DNA of 40,890 nucleotides from the NCBI GenBank assembly GCA_017612555.1, contig JAGAFR010000020.1, positions 1 through 40,890 of the forward strand, read 5' to 3'. Below the pieces are notes generated by a model. It made no database searches, was not told where the DNA came from, and saw nothing but the letters and a program-made list of their open reading frames with translations. A program made the position numbers and the translations under genes. Below are positions 10,008-24,213 of the stretch, piece after piece. This DNA comes from Lachnospiraceae bacterium (GTDB lineage Bacteria; Bacillota; Clostridia; Lachnospirales; Lachnospiraceae). Numbering within the stretch: the stretch's first letter is position 1; each line of letters starts with the position of its first letter.

Positions 10008-11204
10008 CTACATATCATCAACTGTTATGATATCCGTAAGGATATAATGGAACAGAGGGTATGATGTATTCTCATTTTCAATATATCCTTTTCGAAGATC
10101 GATCGTATCGGAAGGATCATCGGGGTTAACGCCCGTATAATTACCGCGGAACACAAAGTCACCGTTTCCGCGCTTAAACCGCTCTATGGCATCCTCCATG
10201 GCATCCTCGGTCCCGGGTGCTGCGGCCTGCATATTAAGGTCATCCATTTCAACCCACCCTTTTTCGAATCCGGCCGAAATGTCCGTTCCGTGAATGCGGC
10301 CTGTTACGACGGATTCAATATCCTTATCCATAAAGACTGCCTCAACTGCGCCGAGAACATAAGGTTCCCAGCATATCCTTGAAGTGATGAGCGATGTACC
10401 GGGAGCAACCTCCGACATGCTCTGATTGTATCCCACATAATATACCGGACGCTCCTCGGATGCTTCCTCACATGCTATGGCAGGACCGATCGTATCCGTA
10501 TGCTGGGAGATAACTATACAACCTTCATCGATAAGATGTTGTGCAGCACTCTTCTCCTGAGCGTAACTGCTCCACGTACCGGTGTAGCACACATGCATAA
10601 CGGTCTGTGACACAACGGAGCGTACCCCCATCAGGTAGGCCGTATAACCCGATATGACCTCCGATGTGGGAAAAGCAGCCACAAATCCTACTACAGCTTC
10701 ATCCTCCGATATGGTACCGTCGAGTATCATCTGCCTTATCTTGACTCCGGCCGCGATACCGCTGACATATCTTCCCTGATAAGCTTCGCCCTTAAAAGTA
10801 TGATAATTGGCAGGAACACTCTGTCCGCTCATATCCATATACGATGTCTGGCAGAACTGTGTATCCGGGTACTCCGGAGCAAGCTTTCTTACCAGTTCGC
10901 TGTATCCGTTGAAAAAAATGATGTCGCACCCCTTTTCTGCCAGTTCCCTGAGGGGCTCTTCCATCTCATCATCAAGAACGTTGCTGCACGACTCGATCGT
11001 CACGCGATCACCGTATTCCCTCTTGAGCGCATCGCTCGCAAGTGAGAAATTATAAGTATAGGGCGTACTTTCATCATTATCGTAAATAAAACCCACCGTC
11101 AGATGCTCCTTTCCTCCGGAAAGATTGAGCAGTCTGAAGCTCACGATGAAACCGGCCATGATCACAAGACATGTCAGCGCGGTTATGATATACACTCGTT
11201 TCAT
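10008..11204 (-). CDS. BMP/PnrA-type periplasmic ligand-binding protein
   Basis: The 398-residue protein has one N-terminal membrane segment (residues 4-26) and then the Bmp/Med fold: LTVGFIYDNDESTPYTYNFS, GCDIIFFNGYSELVRKLAPEYPDTQF, AYQGRYVSGIAAGV and VVGFVAAFPTSEVISGYTAYLMG. Characterised BMP proteins such as PnrA bind purine nucleosides and feed ABC transporters. No lipobox Cys is present, so it is probably membrane-anchored by an uncleaved segment. No permease or ATPase gene is nearby. Its start overlaps the stop of the HD-GYP sensor gene by four bases (ATGA), so the two are made together. It may present a ligand to that receptor rather than to a transporter. Confidence 0.83.
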   Translation of the reverse strand: MKRVYIITALTCLVIMAGFIVSFRLLNLSGGKEHLTVGFIYDNDESTPYTYNFSLASDALKREYGDRVTIESCSNVLDDEMEEPLRELAEKGCDIIFFNGYSELVRKLAPEYPDTQFCQTSYMDMSGQSVPANYHTFKGEAYQGRYVSGIAAGVKIRQMILDGTISEDEAVVGFVAAFPTSEVISGYTAYLMGVRSVVSQTVMHVCYTGTWSSYAQEKSAAQHLIDEGCIVISQHTDTIGPAIACEEASEERPVYYVGYNQSMSEVAPGTSLITSRICWEPYVLGAVEAVFMDKDIESVVTGRIHGTDISAGFEKGWVEMDDLNMQAAAPGTEDAMEDAIERFKRGNGDFVFRGNYTGVNPDDPSDTIDLRKGYIENENTSYPLFHYILTDIITVDDM

Positions 11205-14200
11205 TCCTCTGCTCCTTTCTCTTCTTCTCCGGTCTTATTATCGCTTTGCATCTGCTCGGCCTGTATCTTCTTGTCTTCCTCTTCGCGGCGCCTTAACTCT
11301 TCCTGCGCCTTACTGTCGGCATTTTGGATCTCTGCAGACTTCTGAGCGTAAATCTCATCCAGGTTGATGACTCCCTTATCCACAAGACGCATAAATGCGT
11401 CGAGAGCTTCGGGATCGAACTGTGAGCCCCGTCCCCGCTTCATTTCATTCATGACATAATCCGTATCCATCTGATTTCTGTATACGCGATTGGATGTCAT
11501 TGCATCAAATGTATCCGCAACGCTTATTATCCTTCCGAAGAGCGGTATCTCTTCACCCTTAAGGCCATCCGGATATCCGCGTCCGTCATAGCGTTCATGG
11601 TGATACCTCGTTCCGTCGACAACATTTTCCACGAGAGTGAAATCCTTAAGTATCTCCGCACCGCTCTCCACGTGGGATTTCATCTTGGCGTATTCATCAT
11701 CGTCAAGGCGACCCACCTTATTGAGAACGCTGTCGGGAATGGCGATCTTTCCGATATCGTGCATCTGCGCCGCCTTACGCAGATTGGAAAGATCCTTGCT
11801 GCGCCGCCACCATTTAAAGCATTTCATTTCCCTTGCTATCAGTACGGCATATTCGGCAACGCGCATACTGTGCTGATGCGTACGCACGTCCTTGGCATCG
11901 ACTGCGTTTGCTATGGCCATTACCGTTTCATTGGCCATGTTCAGTTTGATCTGCTGTCTGTTGAGCTGTCTCTGAACTATTATCCATGTGAACCACATGA
12001 TGAACAGTATCAGAAGGATGACCATATAAGTCTTGAATACCCGCTGTTCGTAGAATTCGCCTTCCTTGACGATCTCGAACTTGCGCTCTTCAAGGACACG
12101 CTCACCGGCACTGTCAAATATCGCCAGATGGAATGTATAATCACCCGCCGGCAGATTGACATATATGATGTTGTTCAGATTGTTCTGTGGAACGATGGTC
12201 CACTGACTGTCATACCCCTCGAGATAATATCCCACATTAGGCTCCTGAATGGTATAGTTGAGTATCTCGGGAAACATTTCCACACGGCTGACGCCCTGTC
12301 CGACCGTTATCGCTCCCATACGCGCAAGAGGCTGTGTGACCCCGTCCATCTTCACGGAAGCCAGCTGCATCCGGTAGGACCTTACGTCGGTGTTGTATTT
12401 ATCAACGTCGATGATATAGACACCCGTATCACACGGAAGGAAGAGCTCGCCTTTTTCGTTGTAATAGTTCCATGAATTTGCGGTAAGGGAAGTACCCAGT
12501 CCTCTTCTGGCATCAAGAAGTTCCCATGCGATCTCACCGCCCGCCACGAGTTCATCACGTTCCACGACATATATACCGGCACTGGACATGACAAACAGCG
12601 TGTCTTCATCTTTGACCCAGATATCATAGTTGTTAAAATACGGGAATTTCTCAAGCACCCGTATTGAACCCTTTTCGTCAAGATAGCAAAGACTGTTGCT
12701 GGTTACTATGAACACTCCCTCTGACTTAGGATCCTTTACGGTACGAAGTATGACTCCGCTGGAGAGTCCATCATCCCTTGTCAGCATCTTCTCAACTTTT
12801 CCGTCCCGAAGAACAGCGATACCGTCTCCGTCCGTTCCCGCAAGTATCGTTCCGTCACTTCGCTCGGTCGCGGTCAGTATCATAGAGTTGATCAGTCCGT
12901 CTTCGTTACGGATCGTTTTATCTATCCTGTGATCGCGGATATAGCTGATACCCGTATCACCTGCCGCAAATATCGTTCCATCCGACAGTCCCGTTACTAT
13001 ACGGGCCCTGTTTCCGAAGCTTCCGGTGTCAGCATTGTATGACCATGACTCTCCGTCGGGTGCATATTCCATAAGACCGCTGCCGTATGTACATATCCAC
13101 AGATGATCTTTATCATCCACGTACATGCATCGTATACGTTTGCCGTCAAGTTCGGTCGTCAGATCGTTGTTTATCTGTCTGCGGCATGCCCTGTCCACAA
13201 CATCAAGTCCTTTGTCCGTTCCGATATAATAGTTGCCCTGCCAGTTTACGATGGCATTTACGACACGCCTCTCCATACCGATGGCACCGTATACATCCTT
13301 GAAAGGAGACTTGGCCAGCCGGAGGAGTCCGAGTCTTGATGATGTAAACCAGAGATTACCCTGGTAGTCATACAGCATATTGTCGATGGAGTTGTTAAAA
13401 TCATTTGTATTGAGCTTGTGATATGCTCCATTGTCCAAATACGATATACCGCTGTCGGAAGATACGAACAGTGTACCGTCGGGCAGATAGTTCAGGTTGT
13501 TGATGCTGGCCACATCTTCACAGGTAATGGTGTTCTTTTTCTTAAATGTATCCGAAGAAACGTCAAAACAATAAATGTGGTTGGTAGATGATCCCACCAT
13601 CAGTGTTCCGTCCGGAGAAAAAGCACAGCAGTTGTACAGTTCCTTCTCGTCAGGCAGCTGATCGCTGCACACTATCTTTCCGCCGCGCATCAGGAACAGG
13701 CGTCCGTCGGAAGCTATGGTCGCCACTCGCCCCGACTCATCAGCTGTGATACTGTCGGCGTAGTTTACTTCTTCAAGATCATCCGCTACCTTCAGACCAT
13801 TGTTCATGACAAGCACCTGCATGCTGCCGGTCGTTCCCACGTAATAATTTCCATCAGTCGCGCGGATGATGCATCTGACCGAATTGGATCCGAGTCCGCT
13901 CGTCTGGTCCAGCACATTGACCACCTTCTCACGGATCACGATCGACAGACCGTTGTCATTCGTTCCGATCCACAGACGTCCTTCCTCATCCACGTAAAGG
14001 CAGTTGACATTCTTGACTGATTCATAATCATCGACCCAGCGGAACTCTCTCCCATTATACCTGTACAGTCCTGCATATGTTCCTATCCAGAGAACTCCGT
14101 CATTGGTCTGCGCTATGTCGTTGGCCTCGCCGCACGGAAGTCCGTTATTACTGCTGTATACGCTCTGTACATAATCGTTATAATCTGTCGGATCCTGTGC

Positions 14201-14854
14201 CGATGCTGCCTGTGTACCGACAGGAACAAGAAGACTCATTCCGACGGACAACGCGAGGATCATTGCGATCCCTTGTGCACTTTCGCCTGTAACCTCCCTG
14301 TTATGTTTATGGTTCCGCCTGAACCTTCTGATGAGCATCACAAGATAGACAGCCAGTATAGTGATCATCTTGTCGGCAAACTCGATCGAAAGCTGACCGA
14401 GAACACTGCTTATAAGAAAAGGAACATCTTTTTCAAGCAGATAGTCGATAAGTGCATTACCCCAACTGTTACCGGTATATCCCTTATCGAGCAGGAGGTT
14501 TATCGGAACGGAAACGGCTAGCGATGTAAATACCGCGAAGGAAGCGGCCTTCATAAATCCGTAAAACCTGTCAAACCATTTCCTGTTTGCCGCGATACCC
14601 ACGATCACCCCGAGTGCGATACTCGTAAGCGAATAAGCAGCCGACAGATGATTGACTACGCAGTACGCCATATTGGCGGTAAATCCGACCAGTGCTCCGC
14701 ATACGGGACCGCCTATACATGCACACAACGCCGTTCCGAAAGAATCGGCCCAAAGCGGAAGCCCGAGACTTACGGACAAAAGCTTTCCGCCTATATTAAG
14801 ACATATGCAGATCGTAACGAACAGAACGATCTTCCAGATTTTCCAATTCTTCAT
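11201..14854 (-). CDS. ECF-S-like membrane domain, beta-propeller, Y_Y_Y and HD-GYP sensor
   Basis: This 1217-residue receptor has: residues 5-178, about six membrane segments resembling ECF transporter S components (GLPLWADSFGTALCACIGG; PVCGALVGFTANM); 195-217, another membrane segment; about 230-820, a large extracytoplasmic propeller with Reg_prop repeats (NDGVLWIGTYAGLYRYNG; EGRLWIGTNDNGLSI; DHLWICTYGSGLMEY); 855-930, a Y_Y_Y domain (VGYYLEGYDSQW; LPAGDYTFHLAIFDSAG); 943-961, a final membrane segment; and about 975-1160, HD-GYP. The phosphodiesterase motifs are intact: HD at 1032-1033, HDIGK, H1085-H1086 and GYP at 1093-1095. The tail is highly charged. The expected product of c-di-GMP hydrolysis is pGpG or GMP. 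Charged flanks fit propeller outside, HD-GYP inside. It overlaps the BMP gene by four bases. Confidence 0.87.
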   Translation of the reverse strand: MKNWKIWKIVLFVTICICLNIGGKLLSVSLGLPLWADSFGTALCACIGGPVCGALVGFTANMAYCVVNHLSAAYSLTSIALGVIVGIAANRKWFDRFYGFMKAASFAVFTSLAVSVPINLLLDKGYTGNSWGNALIDYLLEKDVPFLISSVLGQLSIEFADKMITILAVYLVMLIRRFRRNHKHNREVTGESAQGIAMILALSVGMSLLVPVGTQAASAQDPTDYNDYVQSVYSSNNGLPCGEANDIAQTNDGVLWIGTYAGLYRYNGREFRWVDDYESVKNVNCLYVDEEGRLWIGTNDNGLSIVIREKVVNVLDQTSGLGSNSVRCIIRATDGNYYVGTTGSMQVLVMNNGLKVADDLEEVNYADSITADESGRVATIASDGRLFLMRGGKIVCSDQLPDEKELYNCCAFSPDGTLMVGSSTNHIYCFDVSSDTFKKKNTITCEDVASINNLNYLPDGTLFVSSDSGISYLDNGAYHKLNTNDFNNSIDNMLYDYQGNLWFTSSRLGLLRLAKSPFKDVYGAIGMERRVVNAIVNWQGNYYIGTDKGLDVVDRACRRQINNDLTTELDGKRIRCMYVDDKDHLWICTYGSGLMEYAPDGESWSYNADTGSFGNRARIVTGLSDGTIFAAGDTGISYIRDHRIDKTIRNEDGLINSMILTATERSDGTILAGTDGDGIAVLRDGKVEKMLTRDDGLSSGVILRTVKDPKSEGVFIVTSNSLCYLDEKGSIRVLEKFPYFNNYDIWVKDEDTLFVMSSAGIYVVERDELVAGGEIAWELLDARRGLGTSLTANSWNYYNEKGELFLPCDTGVYIIDVDKYNTDVRSYRMQLASVKMDGVTQPLARMGAITVGQGVSRVEMFPEILNYTIQEPNVGYYLEGYDSQWTIVPQNNLNNIIYVNLPAGDYTFHLAIFDSAGERVLEERKFEIVKEGEFYEQRVFKTYMVILLILFIMWFTWIIVQRQLNRQQIKLNMANETVMAIANAVDAKDVRTHQHSMRVAEYAVLIAREMKCFKWWRRSKDLSNLRKAAQMHDIGKIAIPDSVLNKVGRLDDDEYAKMKSHVESGAEILKDFTLVENVVDGTRYHHERYDGRGYPDGLKGEEIPLFGRIISVADTFDAMTSNRVYRNQMDTDYVMNEMKRGRGSQFDPEALDAFMRLVDKGVINLDEIYAQKSAEIQNADSKAQEELRRREEEDKKIQAEQMQSDNKTGEEEKGAEE

Positions 14855-14891: not shown

Positions 14892-16757
14892 TTACCTGTC
14901 GGCAAGTGATTTAAGCGGCATGGGTTTTCCGAACAGGTAACCCTGAAGCCTCTCGCATCCTATCTCTGTAAGGAACTTTGCCTGCTCCTGCGTCTCTACT
15001 CCCTCCGCAAGCGTCTTCATCCCTATTGATTCAGCCATGTTCACTATGCTCTTTAATATCGCCTCTGTCCTGACATCACCGTGAAAATCCTTCAGGAAGA
15101 TCATATCTATCTTCATAACATCAAAAGCATAATCTTTGAGAACATTAAGAGCAGAATATCCCGATCCGAAATCATCGAGCCACAGTTCAAGCTTCTTTTC
15201 CTTCATGATCTGCACAGCCTGTTTCAGTTTTTCATCGCTCCCTATAAGAGCACTCTCGGTGATCTCAACGTGAAGATATGACTCCGGAATATCAAATTTT
15301 TTGATCAGTTTCTGAAGATTGTCAGTCACATCGGTCAATTCAAAATCAAGACGCGAGAAGTTCACGGATACCGGAAGTACCTGCCTTCCTTCATCCATCC
15401 CTTCTCTTATATCACGGCATACCCGCTCAAGTATTGCCGTATCAAGCCAGTGTATCAGCCTGTATTCTTCAAGTGCCGGAACAAACTCCGCCGGCGAGAG
15501 GAATCCGTATGTCGGATCCACCCATCTCGCAAGTGCTTCAACACTGCATATACTGCGCTCTTTTGCCCATACGACGGGCTGATAGTACACCTTCAGGTAT
15601 TCCTTCTCGATAGCTTCCTGGATATGAGTTATGATGTACTGTCTCTTCTTAAATGCCTCGTCCATTTTCTGATCATACTCACATAAGATTTCATCACCAT
15701 ACTTCTTGATCATTGAACAGGCATATCTTGCGTGGTCACAGGCGATCAGAGGATCTACTTTTGAACCCTTTACCGCATATGCTCCGGCCTTAATCATCAT
15801 ATGAGTGGACTTATGGTCCTCGCGGACCAGTCTGTTAAGCTCTTCAAGTTTTCCTTCAACCCCGTCCCTGACGGTAAGAGCAACAAAATGATCATCGGAA
15901 AACCTTGCGATCAGATCTCTGTGAAATGCATGACTAAGAGCCTTGGCTGTCTTGCGTATAAACTCGCTTCCCGCATCAAAACCGTATTTTTCGTTGTAAG
16001 CTTTAAAATTGGAAATATCCAGAAACAGGAATATGTGTTCGGTGTTTTCTTTGGCGGCAATGATCAGAGATGCCTGTTCACGAAAGCTGGTCATATTGGC
16101 AAGTCCGGTAAGGTCATCTCTTATGGAATGATTTTCAAGCTTCTCGTCCTTCTCGGCCTCGGCAAGGCGCTGTCCATATACGGCAAGGCCCAACATAACG
16201 ATGGCTATCCAGAGCATGAAATAGTTCACCTGCGTGGCATATGTCATCTCAACTCCGGGTGCCCGGCTCATGATCACATAGAACAGGGCAAACGTGCCGC
16301 TGCTTATGATGATCGAGATAAAAGGCCTCCAGTTGAGGAGTCCCACCACGAAGATGATCATCATGATGAAGCACAGTATCTGCTCTCCTCTTGTGTAATC
16401 CGAATAAGAAACATTCACACCGAAATAGATCGCTATGGCGGAGAATATGATCATTATCCCCATTCCAAGCGCAAAGTTATCCGTTATGTTCTTAAGATAC
16501 AGTTTGGCAAAGATAAGCATAAAGACAGCAGCGATCAGAAAGACCACATACCATGTCAGATGTTGGGAATACCAGGAACTGTCGCGGCTGTTGTCACCGC
16601 TTACCCATCTGTACAAGAGGCTGGCAAGCATCCAGAGTTCCAGGATGATTATAACTATCGACATGTAGATACTGGAGCGAAAATTCGCACGGGCGAAATA
16701 ATTGTTTACGTATTCACTCCTCTTTTCCAATCCCAGATAACGCCTTAATTTTCCCAT
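14892..16757 (-). CDS. Membrane GGDEF(degenerate)-EAL c-di-GMP phosphodiesterase
   Basis: The 621-residue protein has about six membrane segments (residues 30-195), a GGDEF domain (about 213-365) and an EAL domain (about 372-618). The cyclase active site has become SDDHF at 287-291, so synthesis is not expected. The EAL domain looks complete: E407-A-L, N466, E498, the DDFGSGYS pair D528/D529, K549, E585 in AEGVET, and Q605. It should therefore hydrolyse c-di-GMP, with the degenerate GGDEF possibly a GTP-sensing regulator. GGGAGG precedes the ATG. It follows nifJ by 24 bases and precedes the HD-GYP sensor by 37, placing two phosphodiesterases of unrelated folds in one transcript. Confidence 0.88.
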   Translation of the reverse strand: MGKLRRYLGLEKRSEYVNNYFARANFRSSIYMSIVIIILELWMLASLLYRWVSGDNSRDSSWYSQHLTWYVVFLIAAVFMLIFAKLYLKNITDNFALGMGIMIIFSAIAIYFGVNVSYSDYTRGEQILCFIMMIIFVVGLLNWRPFISIIISSGTFALFYVIMSRAPGVEMTYATQVNYFMLWIAIVMLGLAVYGQRLAEAEKDEKLENHSIRDDLTGLANMTSFREQASLIIAAKENTEHIFLFLDISNFKAYNEKYGFDAGSEFIRKTAKALSHAFHRDLIARFSDDHFVALTVRDGVEGKLEELNRLVREDHKSTHMMIKAGAYAVKGSKVDPLIACDHARYACSMIKKYGDEILCEYDQKMDEAFKKRQYIITHIQEAIEKEYLKVYYQPVVWAKERSICSVEALARWVDPTYGFLSPAEFVPALEEYRLIHWLDTAILERVCRDIREGMDEGRQVLPVSVNFSRLDFELTDVTDNLQKLIKKFDIPESYLHVEITESALIGSDEKLKQAVQIMKEKKLELWLDDFGSGYSALNVLKDYAFDVMKIDMIFLKDFHGDVRTEAILKSIVNMAESIGMKTLAEGVETQEQAKFLTEIGCERLQGYLFGKPMPLKSLADR

Positions 16758-20332: not shown

Positions 20333-22801
20333 CTAAAGGCCCAGCTTCTTTACCGCATCCTCGCGCATCTTGTATTTGAGCACCTTGCCCGCCGCATTCA
20401 TCGGGAAGCTGTCGGTAAACTCAATATACTTGGGAACCTTATGACGTGCCAGATGAGACTTGATGTATTCATCCATCTCCTCGACAGTCATCGTCTCGCC
20501 GTCTTTTAATATGATGCACGCCATGGCTTCTTCGCCGTATCTTGCATCGGGAACGCCTATTACCTGAACATCCTTTACCTTCGGACAGGTATAGATGAAT
20601 TCTTCTATCTCCTTAGGGTAGATGTTCTCTCCGCCCCTGATTATCATATCCTTAAGACGTCCGGTGATCCTGTAGTTGCCGTTCTCATCCTTGGCCGCAA
20701 GGTCTCCCGAATGGAGCCATCCCTCGGCATCGATCGTATCTCTTGTAGCCTCGGGCATCTTGTAGTAGCCCTTCATCGTGTTGTATCCCCTTGCACAGAA
20801 CTCACCGTTCTCCCCGACTCCGACTTCCTTTCCGGTCTCGGGATCGATGACTTTGCATTCAACGTGGGGGAATGCATATCCGACAGTCTCGGTACGTACG
20901 TCAAGGGGATCTGTCCACGAAGACATCGTATTACCGGGAGCGGTCTCGGTCTGACCGTATACGGACACGATGCCGCGCATGTTCATTTCGTTCGGATCCG
21001 CTGCTCTCTTCATAAGTTCCGGAGGGCATCCGGCACCGGCCATGATACCGGTCCTCATATATGAAAAATCAGTCTTCCTGTAGTCCTCGTGATTGAACAT
21101 CGCTATGAACATCGTAGGCACGCCGTTAAAGCATGTGATCCTCTCCTGATTGATACACGCAAGCGATGATTTTGCACTAAAGTACGGCATCGGACAGATC
21201 GTTGCTCCGTGCGTGAGTGAAGACGTCATCGACAGTACCATTCCGAAACAGTGGAACATCGGTACCTGTATCATCATCCTGTCGGCTGTGGACAGTCCCA
21301 TCCTGTCACCGATACATTTTCCGTTATTGACAACATTATAGTGAGTCAGCATAACACCCTTGGGAAATCCGGTCGTTCCCGAAGTATACTGCATGTTGCA
21401 GACATCATCCGGTCTGACCCCGGCTGCCATCTTCTCCAGTTCGGCATCGGATACCATATCGCATCTGTCCATCGCTTCCTCAAAAGTAAGAGCACCCGGC
21501 ATCCTGAAACCTACCGTTATGACGTTTCTGAGGAACGGAAGCTTCTTGCAGTGAAGCGGCTCTCCCGCCTTTGACGATGCGATCTCGGGACACAGCTCGT
21601 TTATGATGCTCTTATAGTTCGAATCAAGGACTGACTCTATCATGACCAAAGTATGGCTGTCTGACTGGCGGAGCAGATACTCGGCCTCGTGTATCTTGTA
21701 TGATGTGTTCATCGTAACAAGCACGGCACCTATCTTGCAGCATGCCCAGAATGATATATACCATGCAGGCACGTTTGTCGCCCATACCGCAACCTTTGAT
21801 CCCGATCTGACACCAAGGCTCATGAGAGACTTTGCAAAATCATTGACGTCGTCCCTGAACTCCTCATATGTCCTTGTATAATCAAGCGTAGTATATTTGA
21901 AGCAGTACTGATCCGGAAACTCCTCGACCATCCGATCCAACACCTGGGGAAATGTCAGGTTGATGAGCTCATCCTTCTTCCATACGTAATATCCGGTACC
22001 GTCATGGTTGGGGTAGAGCACCTTCTTCTTGCCCCTTGTATTTTTAAAGCGGCTCATATAGTTTACGAAGTAAGGGAATATGACTTCGTAGTCATCAAGA
22101 TCATCCATATACTCCGGCTTCCATTCAAGAGAGATAAACCCTGCATAGTCGATGGAATACAGGGCATCCATAAACTCCTTGATCGGAGCACTGCCTTCTC
22201 CTATGAGGTTATATGTATCCTTGTCGTCGGAATCGCACAGATGCACATGCTTAACATATGCCCCGAGATTGCGTATCGTATCCTTCGGCTCTTCGCCGCC
22301 GGATCTGTATGTATGGTGAAGATCCCACAATGCGGCGAGATTATCGTCTGCGAATTCATCAAGAAGTCCGCACAGCTTCTTTGTGTCGGAATATATCCCT
22401 TCGGTCTCTACAAGAAGGATCACGCCTTCTTTCCTTGCAGACGGAAGGAGTTCTTTGATCACTTTTTTGATACTTTTCTCATCTTCCGTATCAAAAACGA
22501 TACCCACATGATCAACGCGCATATAGCCCGCTACATCTATGGTCTTTTTGATATCCTGAACCGATACGGGATCGGCAGGATCGCACTTTCCGTAAAAAGC
22601 AGGGATCGCAAGCTTTCTGTCACGAAGCTGCCTTGTGGTCGCTGCCAGATTGTACTGATCAAAGGCCTGACCCTTACCGTACAGTCTGTCCTGTGTAAGC
22701 TTGTAAACTTCAATGCCGGCAAAATCCATTTCGTTTGCAACGTCAAGATAGCCGTCCCATGTTATATCGTCCCATCCTCGTGTGGAAAATGACAGTTTCA
22801 T
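20333..22801 (-). CDS. TIM-barrel (sugar-phosphate isomerase/epimerase-like) fused to acyl-CoA ligase
   Basis: The 822-residue protein joins two enzymes. Residues 1-255 form a xylose-isomerase-like TIM barrel with a plausible metal site: VETEG (Glu near 133), LWDLHH (Asp and His near 161-164), VKHVHLCDSD (His near 188) and SLEWKP (Glu near 227). After a linker, residues 280-822 are an AMP-forming acyl-CoA/carboxylate ligase: P-loop YTSGTTGFPKGVMLTH (about 473-488), VYGQTE, WLHSGDLAAKDENGNYRITGR, IIRGGENIYP and the catalytic Lys in AAGKVLK (about 807). Both halves look active. The ligase half resembles medium-chain fatty acyl-CoA ligases; the substrate is unknown. The ATG shares one base with the upstream stop (TGATG), and GGAGG lies seven bases before it, so it is coupled to the LeuA-like gene. 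Confidence 0.88.
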   Translation of the reverse strand: MKLSFSTRGWDDITWDGYLDVANEMDFAGIEVYKLTQDRLYGKGQAFDQYNLAATTRQLRDRKLAIPAFYGKCDPADPVSVQDIKKTIDVAGYMRVDHVGIVFDTEDEKSIKKVIKELLPSARKEGVILLVETEGIYSDTKKLCGLLDEFADDNLAALWDLHHTYRSGGEEPKDTIRNLGAYVKHVHLCDSDDKDTYNLIGEGSAPIKEFMDALYSIDYAGFISLEWKPEYMDDLDDYEVIFPYFVNYMSRFKNTRGKKKVLYPNHDGTGYYVWKKDELINLTFPQVLDRMVEEFPDQYCFKYTTLDYTRTYEEFRDDVNDFAKSLMSLGVRSGSKVAVWATNVPAWYISFWACCKIGAVLVTMNTSYKIHEAEYLLRQSDSHTLVMIESVLDSNYKSIINELCPEIASSKAGEPLHCKKLPFLRNVITVGFRMPGALTFEEAMDRCDMVSDAELEKMAAGVRPDDVCNMQYTSGTTGFPKGVMLTHYNVVNNGKCIGDRMGLSTADRMMIQVPMFHCFGMVLSMTSSLTHGATICPMPYFSAKSSLACINQERITCFNGVPTMFIAMFNHEDYRKTDFSYMRTGIMAGAGCPPELMKRAADPNEMNMRGIVSVYGQTETAPGNTMSSWTDPLDVRTETVGYAFPHVECKVIDPETGKEVGVGENGEFCARGYNTMKGYYKMPEATRDTIDAEGWLHSGDLAAKDENGNYRITGRLKDMIIRGGENIYPKEIEEFIYTCPKVKDVQVIGVPDARYGEEAMACIILKDGETMTVEEMDEYIKSHLARHKVPKYIEFTDSFPMNAAGKVLKYKMREDAVKKLGL

Positions 22802-24213
22802 CACGGCTCCTCCTCGTATATTACTTTGTTGACAGCATTAAGATATGCTCTTACGCTTGCTCCGATAATGTCGGTAGACAGACCTCTTCCCGAGTAAACT
22901 TTGCCGTTCGCCAAAAGCTTTACTATCGTCTCCGCAGCCGCTTCTTTTCCTTCGGTCACGGCCTTGATCTGAAAATCATCCAGTTCGTAATGTCTTCCGG
23001 TTATCTGCTCTATTGCAAGGAAAGCTGCGTCAATGGGTCCGTCCCCGAGCGAGATGCCTTCCAGGTCTTCGTCTTTTGTGCGAAGCTTCACGTGAGCCAT
23101 CGATGTGATGGAATTGCCGGTATTGGCAATATAATCTTCAAGCGTATATCTTGCAGGAACCTGCATGGCTGCGGTTGCAACGATCGCATCCAGTTCCTTC
23201 GTCGAAACGGATTCCTTTCTTGTGGCAAGCTTCATGAACGCTTCGTATACCTTATCTCCGTCTTCCGGTCCCAGGCTGTATCCAAGCTTTTCAACAACAC
23301 CGAGAACAGCCTCTTTTGTATCGTGAGATGTAAGCCTGTCATCAGACGATTCTTCGCCGGACGTGAATCCGAATGCTGTTTTTCCCGTTGCAGACGGAAC
23401 ACAAAATCTGTCGATGAGTCCTATCATCCTTTTCATCGAAGATGTTGCCACACCCGTCCTGACTCCAAAGCTCTCACCTTTTCCTGCGATGACTCTGCAC
23501 ACATTCTCAAGAGACGAAGTATTGACGGGATATGCCGAAGCCTTGATCTCACCCGCACCGTGGCAGAGAGCCGCTATCGCACACGCATCCGCCATTGCCA
23601 GCTCGTTGGAACATGATACTCCCCATGTTATGTCTGAAAGCTTGGGATCGGCCTTTAACCTGTCCTCAAGAAAAGCTGCGAACTCTTCGGGCAGCATGGT
23701 TCCCGCATCATCACAGAAAGTGATCGTGGTGGCACCTGAAGAAATAGCGGTCTCGGTAAGATCCGACAGGACCATTGTATCAGCCCTTGTGGCATCATCT
23801 ATAAGAAGTTCCACATCATCCGTGTACTTCTTACACGCTTCCACCGTTGACTTTACCATCTCGATGATCGCCGGAACCTTCTTGTGATAAACATACTCCA
23901 TCCTGACACTGCTTCCGGGTGCTACCACCTGAAGCCTGAAATGCCCGGCTTCCGAAAGAGCGGCAGCCGTCGGAGCAGGATCGCCCCCAAGAGCCACCGG
24001 TACCGCTACGGTACTGTTCTTTACCGCAGACGCAACCGACTTGATCAGCAGGCTGTCAACCTTGCTGTTCTGTATCTCATCGAGTTCTATAACATCAACA
24101 CATAGCTTGTCCAGTAGCTTGGCAACCTCCAGCTTTTCCTTGAAGGACAGAGAGATATCCCTGCCGCCCGAAAGCTTTCTTACTGTGCTGTCGCATACTT
24201 TGACTGTGTTCAT
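22801..24213 (-). CDS. Isopropylmalate/homocitrate synthase homologue with missing catalytic metal site
   Basis: The 470-residue protein has an HMGL-like TIM barrel (about 1-280) and a LeuA-type C-terminal regulatory domain (about 365-465: DGPIDAAFLAIEQI; GRGLSTDIIGASVRAYLNAV). In LeuA-type enzymes the first strand carries D-x-T-L-R-D-G-E and a later strand the metal-binding H-x-H-N-D. Here these are DSTVRKL (8-14), where Asp8 and Arg12 remain but D-G is lost, and SCSNE (200-204), where both metal-ligand His are Ser. Normal Claisen condensation of acetyl-CoA is therefore unlikely. The rest is well conserved and free of breaks, so it is under selection for another role. AGGAGG precedes the ATG, 11 bases after the S41 gene, and the stop overlaps the start of the TIM/ligase fusion. 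Confidence 0.85.
   Translation of the reverse strand: MNTVKVCDSTVRKLSGGRDISLSFKEKLEVAKLLDKLCVDVIELDEIQNSKVDSLLIKSVASAVKNSTVAVPVALGGDPAPTAAALSEAGHFRLQVVAPGSSVRMEYVYHKKVPAIIEMVKSTVEACKKYTDDVELLIDDATRADTMVLSDLTETAISSGATTITFCDDAGTMLPEEFAAFLEDRLKADPKLSDITWGVSCSNELAMADACAIAALCHGAGEIKASAYPVNTSSLENVCRVIAGKGESFGVRTGVATSSMKRMIGLIDRFCVPSATGKTAFGFTSGEESSDDRLTSHDTKEAVLGVVEKLGYSLGPEDGDKVYEAFMKLATRKESVSTKELDAIVATAAMQVPARYTLEDYIANTGNSITSMAHVKLRTKDEDLEGISLGDGPIDAAFLAIEQITGRHYELDDFQIKAVTEGKEAAAETIVKLLANGKVYSGRGLSTDIIGASVRAYLNAVNKVIYEEEP

Follow-up and report, generated by a model that had tools for sequence, protein, structure and literature searches.

This locus raises the question of whether the membrane domain of a nutrient importer can serve as the sensing part of a receptor and, if so, what such a receptor might detect and with which partner. 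The locus lies in a 40,890-nucleotide stretch of DNA from a Lachnospiraceae bacterium (contig JAGAFR010000020.1), referred to below as the window. The receptor gene is an open reading frame of 1217 aa with an ATG start (positions 11201 to 14854, reverse strand), which a first-pass annotation, made from the letters alone, had read as an ECF-S-like module of roughly 180 residues followed by a propeller, a Y_Y_Y domain and an intact HD-GYP phosphodiesterase domain. Profile searches bore out this reading. Pfam detected Reg_prop in four stretches (E 1.1e-22), Y_Y_Y (E 2.1e-8) and HD_5 at residues 982 to 1149 (E 4.5e-37), and the HD-GYP motifs HDIGK (residue 1032) and HHERYDGRGYP (residue 1085) are intact (Table 1). 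The HDxGK and HHExxxGxGYP motifs were both present in 78 of 78 near receptors; among 24 distant receptors, all have HDxGK and 12 have the full second motif, the other 12 lacking only its final Pro as judged by eye. The predicted output of the receptor is c-di-GMP phosphodiesterase activity.

Table 1. Features of the receptor gene and its partner in the window
Feature	Positions	Strand	Basis
S-component domain, residues 1-180	14315..14854	(-)	NCBIfam ECF_S_CD3073; FolT profile match; motif GYTGNSWGN
Residues 191-220, the seventh hydrophobic segment, with a site of AxA type; either an anchor or an internal signal peptide	14195..14284	(-)	Site pattern above 500 shuffles
Reg_prop propeller region, predicted to be extracellular, about residues 225-870	12245..14182	(-)	Pfam
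Y_Y_Y domain, residues 876-928	12071..12229	(-)	Pfam
Second membrane crossing, residues 937-965 (predicted)	11960..12046	(-)	Hydropathy
HD-GYP phosphodiesterase domain (predicted activity), about residues 975-1166	11357..11932	(-)	Pfam HD_5; motifs intact
Membrane-anchored BMP/PnrA-type binding protein, 398 aa, 4-base overlap with receptor gene	10008..11204	(-)	Pfam Bmp; neighbourhood; pocket residues

Hydropathy segments at residues 3-34, 38-67, 66-90, 100-124, 155-175, 191-217 and 937-965, together with basic stretches at 1-8 and 174-195 and an acidic stretch at 212-230, are consistent with the topology proposed earlier, in which the propeller is outside and HD-GYP inside. Near-full-length homologues with 73 to 87% identity were found at 80 loci (the best 80 of 235 relatives), so the architecture is not due to chance. 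Among receptors of family genomes, the outputs that accompany a propeller are HD-GYP, hybrid kinase and GGDEF. The propeller, Y_Y_Y domain, membrane crossing and signal peptide before the propeller are shared with hybrid two-component propeller sensors, from which the present protein differs in having HD-GYP in place of the kinase and an S domain upstream. A search for long open reading frames (>1,000 aa) carrying this type of S domain (E 1e-10) returned 3 of 391 genomes of the class, all from the same family. In the open-licence literature searched, no work on or characterization of the S-propeller-HD-GYP architecture was found; receptors with an S-component fold as such are already known, in the 5TMR-LYT group (PMC11109136).

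The relationship of the N-terminal domain to ECF S components is seen at the level of profiles. ECF_S_CD3073 (NF045596) matches receptor residues 11 to 174 with an E value of 1.2e-15; at 57.7 bits the match stays under the curated cut-off (180), as do those of three scanned solo relatives, i.e., S genes standing alone (45.5, 84.8 and 86.4 bits). The window S domain has no Pfam ECF match, PF12822 included, and PF12822 matches 26 of the 33 S domains of a mixed alignment at E values up to 0.1. When a profile of these 33 domains was run against the PDB, FolT, the folate ECF S component, was the sole protein to match with an E value below 0.01 (5d0y, 1.4e-3; 5d3m and others, 5.1e-3). The S domain shares its profile, a pocket-type motif and its tree position with the CD3073 family and the phosphorylase/EcfT/EcfA operons at L151-L153, from which it differs in being fused to a receptor and in its mostly changed docking positions.

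In 5TMR-LYT receptors, e.g., BtsS and YpdA, an S-component fold likewise acts as a membrane sensor joined to signaling outputs, which include GGDEF and EAL (PMC11109136). That the present domain belongs with these receptors and merely resembles ECF S components is an improbable alternative. PF07694 matches 14 of the 33 S domains at E values up to 0.1, and two receptors exceed its cut-off of 24.6 (L128, 29.9 bits; L122, 24.8 bits), whereas the window S domain has no PF07694 match. 5TMR-LYT receptors carry an additional helix, H0, as well as an NxR motif (PMC11109136). The window has only eight residues before helix 1, no hydrophobic helix precedes the core in any of the receptors checked for it (48 of the 55), and NxR between helices 1 and 2 occurs in 1 of 43 propeller receptors, the window reading LNIGG. 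The present receptors also differ from 5TMR-LYT in carrying a propeller and HD-GYP, and their S domains share a sequence clade with ECF-operon S genes (in a tree without 5TMR domains). When 30 S domains were scanned singly, 7 of the 12 solos but none of the 18 receptors passed the PF12822 cut-off, and 2 of the 18 receptors but none of the 12 solos passed that of PF07694, which places receptor S domains between the two families. The domains at L128 (3017-3628) and L122 (7681-8310) also match ECF models and form a sequence link between the families.

The tree was built from 90 S domains (35 solos, 43 propeller receptors and 12 receptors without propeller) taken from 80 fetched stretches of family genomes, and was midpoint-rooted. 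Propeller receptors form one clade with a single long-branch solo, L148 (support 97/86), which is sister to 12 solo S genes (joint support 100/99), while receptors without propeller form a separate clade (100/98). With a midpoint root, the likeliest reading, though not proof, is that S components were recruited twice from transporters into receptors. The motif G.[TS]..?N.[WF]G[DNQE] follows the same division: 38 of 43 propeller receptors and all 12 sister solos have it, as against none of the 12 other receptors or 23 other solos. Its exact form, GxTGNxWGD, is found in 21 of 43 propeller receptors and all 12 sister solos; the window reads GYTGNSWGN. This GxTGNxWG-type motif may line the ligand pocket.

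The first-pass annotation regarded the protein as a receptor rather than a transporter. The AMVIA motif of FolT, the AxxxA docking motif of helix 1, aligns on window positions 14 and 18. A strict docking set was defined as Ala, Gly, Ser or Pro at 14 with Ala, Gly or Ser at 18, and a loose set added Cys and Thr. All 21 solos that have an ECF module nearby keep the strict set, as do 27 of the 35 solos overall and 2 of 55 receptors; the corresponding numbers for the loose set are 21 of 21, 28 of 35 and 11 of 55. Loss of AXXXA also marks 5TMR receptors (PMC11109136). However, 8 of the 11 loose-set receptors are the entire near lineage in the tree, window included. The window itself has Thr14 and Cys18, outside the strict but inside the loose set, and among 79 near receptors Ala-Cys is commonest (43/79; Thr-Cys 5/79). 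Loss of the docking positions thus lends general support to use as a receptor and is plain, as judged from the alignment, for receptors taken together; for the lineage of the window, which keeps small residues, the claim is not clean. These small residues, and the one EcfT gene of the window's genome, would fit a transceptor whose S domain, besides signaling, continues to dock to the ECF module of the cell and to import its ligand. We consider this very improbable, as the strict set survives in so few receptors and a large propeller chain follows the S domain. Neither EcfT nor EcfA genes are recurrent neighbors of propeller receptors.

The sister transporters offer an indication of the ligand. 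EcfT and EcfA genes are near all 12 sister solos, a nucleoside phosphorylase is near 8 (the scanned ones hit Udp and DeoD models, with scores under the cut-off), a relative of the HTH_11 plus 3H (NiaR-like) regulator of L152 is near 6, and an isochorismatase-family gene is near 4; Pfam identification of these neighbors was made on L152, L151 and L153. The isochorismatase family includes nicotinamidases. NiaR, a repressor of niacin uptake genes (niaX among them), is likewise built from an HTH and a 3H domain (PMC7713382 and PMC5343564). From this combined context, our best guess for the ligand of the sister transporters would be a B3 nucleoside such as nicotinamide riboside. No phosphorylase of the sister type was found in the window's genome at E 1e-40, and two plasmid relatives examined for a ligand clue are plain S-T-A-A operons. 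Overall, a nucleoside phosphorylase or hydrolase gene lies near 21 of 35 solos. The operons at L151-L153 and L189-L196 (phosphorylase, S, EcfT and EcfA, with NiaR-like or isochorismatase-family genes in some) are candidate B3/nucleoside ECF operons in their own right. In another solo clade, a nucleoside hydrolase and a radical SAM gene are nearby in 6 cases and the hydrolase alone in 4. The adjoining hydrolase, S component and radical SAM genes at L149, L199, L203, L204, L212 and L216 resemble queuosine salvage (PMC11130926).

The gene directly downstream of the receptor encodes a BMP/PnrA-type protein (PF02608, E 1.8e-23), whose start overlaps the receptor stop. A BMP gene occupies this position in 75 of 75 close loci, the remaining 5 of 80 being left out because the contig ends in or at the receptor gene, and the 4-base overlap is found in 60 of the 75. 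In two of the remaining loci an early stop in the receptor gene accounts for a long distance between the two genes; in these (L067, 2015-5389; L082, 8001-8399) the downstream BMP gene is open, and the stop could reflect assembly error or decay. Of 17 loci fetched from among the distant members of the BMP clade, 15 have a BMP gene beside the receptor, with only a piece at the contig end in L132, and none was found beside the receptors of L130 and L226. Within those 15 loci, a set chosen for having the gene, BMP is the only neighbor recurring in at least 3. Across 299 family genomes, this BMP clade is set apart by E values of at most 1.4e-107 and at least 45% identity, the next best others reaching 1.0e-61; it is present in 23 genomes, beside the receptor in 22 and split by contig ends in one (G112). 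Other neighbors (GGDEF-EAL, PFOR and Cthe_2159) were rejected as parts of the unit, since they are not conserved beside the receptor in the 80 loci. The GGDEF-EAL protein (14892-16757, reverse strand), a membrane protein, is encoded just upstream of the receptor. Relatives of about 1600 aa were likewise rejected as receptor-BMP fusions: L119, which was scanned, carries kinase-receiver-Hpt at its end, and the rest are matched by the kinase query.

By eye, the BMP protein is anchored through its N-terminus and lacks a lipoprotein signal. Among solved structures, 3s99 and AtzT, both BMP-type purine binders, are its best relatives; AtzT was purified with guanine, and adenine was modelled in 3s99 (PMC6834077). 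In an alignment read by eye, Tyr45, Glu165 and Trp194 of AtzT correspond to Y49, E182 and W211, each conserved in 77 of 77 sequences, so that the aromatic pair and the Glu of the guanine site are common to both. In contrast, Asn218 and Asn220 of AtzT correspond to H235 (75/77) and D237 (77/77), His and Asp being the residues of 3s99, and the Ser97/Phe98 loop is two residues shorter. The pocket resembles the guanine site of AtzT and would be of purine type, with a different loop and His/Asp pair. Membrane anchoring and the pairing with a receptor gene also distinguish this protein from AtzT and 3s99.

Neither the BMP gene, co-translated with the receptor, nor the signal-peptide-like junction between S domain and propeller figured in the first-pass annotation. 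At this junction, a basic stretch (mean net charge +0.7 in near and +2.8 in distant receptors) precedes a short run of hydrophobic residues and a site of AxA type. The pattern [AVST]xA without a following Pro occurs in 69 of 79 receptors of the near set and 28 of 35 of the distant set, and none of 500 shuffles came up to these numbers (means 48.3 and 18.0). A similar signal peptide, as judged by eye, stands at the start of three stand-alone propeller kinases. In the fusion event, an S gene was probably attached to the gene of a secreted propeller sensor together with the latter's signal peptide. These same observations would suit a polyprotein in which the seventh segment, as an internal signal peptide, is cleaved by signal peptidase, freeing the S domain from the propeller-TM-HD-GYP chain as a separate subunit, with the fusion serving only to equalize amounts. 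We regard this as a real possibility but hold it with somewhat less than even confidence. Plain AxA exceeds the shuffles in the near set (46/79 versus 26.8) but is within chance in the distant set (12/35 versus 9.5); the control, the same pattern after TM8 (0/79 near, 1/35 distant), is weak, TM8 being Ala-poor; and the uncharged run of about 18 residues could also remain as an anchor. An extended form, in which transporter-derived S domain, cleavable internal signal peptide, propeller-HD-GYP chain and co-translated tethered BMP make up a membrane polyprotein that assembles into a nucleoside/vitamin-B3 receptor setting c-di-GMP, with importer S components recruited at least twice and outputs of kinase, cyclase and phosphodiesterase, is rather unlikely. 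On another contig of the window's genome (L234, 1013-9072, contig C42), genes for an NMT1-like binding protein, an S-HD-GYP protein, a propeller hybrid kinase and a response regulator follow one another on a single strand and amount to the same parts in split form. There, the S-HD-GYP gene, which holds a second S domain of this genome, overlaps the propeller-kinase gene by 4 bases, and the NMT1-like gene is upstream.

The explanation we put forward, to which we give an even chance, is a two-gene sensory unit: an S-propeller-HD-GYP receptor of ECF-S ancestry and a tethered BMP co-receptor, with a nucleoside- or nucleobase-class ligand and c-di-GMP output. The S domain would share ancestry with S components from nucleoside/vitamin-B3-type salvage operons, would have been placed in frame ahead of the signal peptide that a secreted propeller sensor with HD-GYP output already possessed, and would have retained a motif otherwise found only in the sister transporter clade. 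The membrane-tethered BMP protein, with its purine-type pocket, would be co-translated and probably act as a ligand-binding co-receptor in contact with the receptor. Ligand may then alter the Y_Y_Y-TM-HD-GYP part and so change c-di-GMP breakdown, up or down. Several findings count against this two-gene unit: the ligand hints differ (B3-type from the sister transporters, purine-type from BMP, which in turn departs from AtzT in the Ser97/Phe98 loop), docking positions are kept in 11 receptors when Cys and Thr are counted as small, the exact motif is present in only about half of the propeller receptors (21/43), L130 and L226 are without an adjoining BMP gene, and singly scanned receptor S domains passed the 5TMR cut-off in two cases and that of PF12822 in none.

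A structure-based tree left the sharing of the S-component fold between transporters and receptors unsettled (PMC11109136). The S domains of the present receptors and transporters are similar enough to be placed in one sequence tree, have a motif in common and show a change at the docking positions, which makes the recruitment step testable. Some rumen and gut bacteria seem to join the ligand-catching part of a vitamin or nucleoside importer to a large outside sensor and an inside c-di-GMP-degrading enzyme, with the gene of a membrane-tethered binding protein alongside, such that a nutrient may serve as a signal; the class proposed to be read out as c-di-GMP in these common rumen bacteria is a nucleoside, nucleobase or vitamin B3. 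Elsewhere in the window, a single gene (20333-22804, reverse strand) encodes a xylose-isomerase-like TIM barrel joined to an AMP-binding acyl-CoA ligase.
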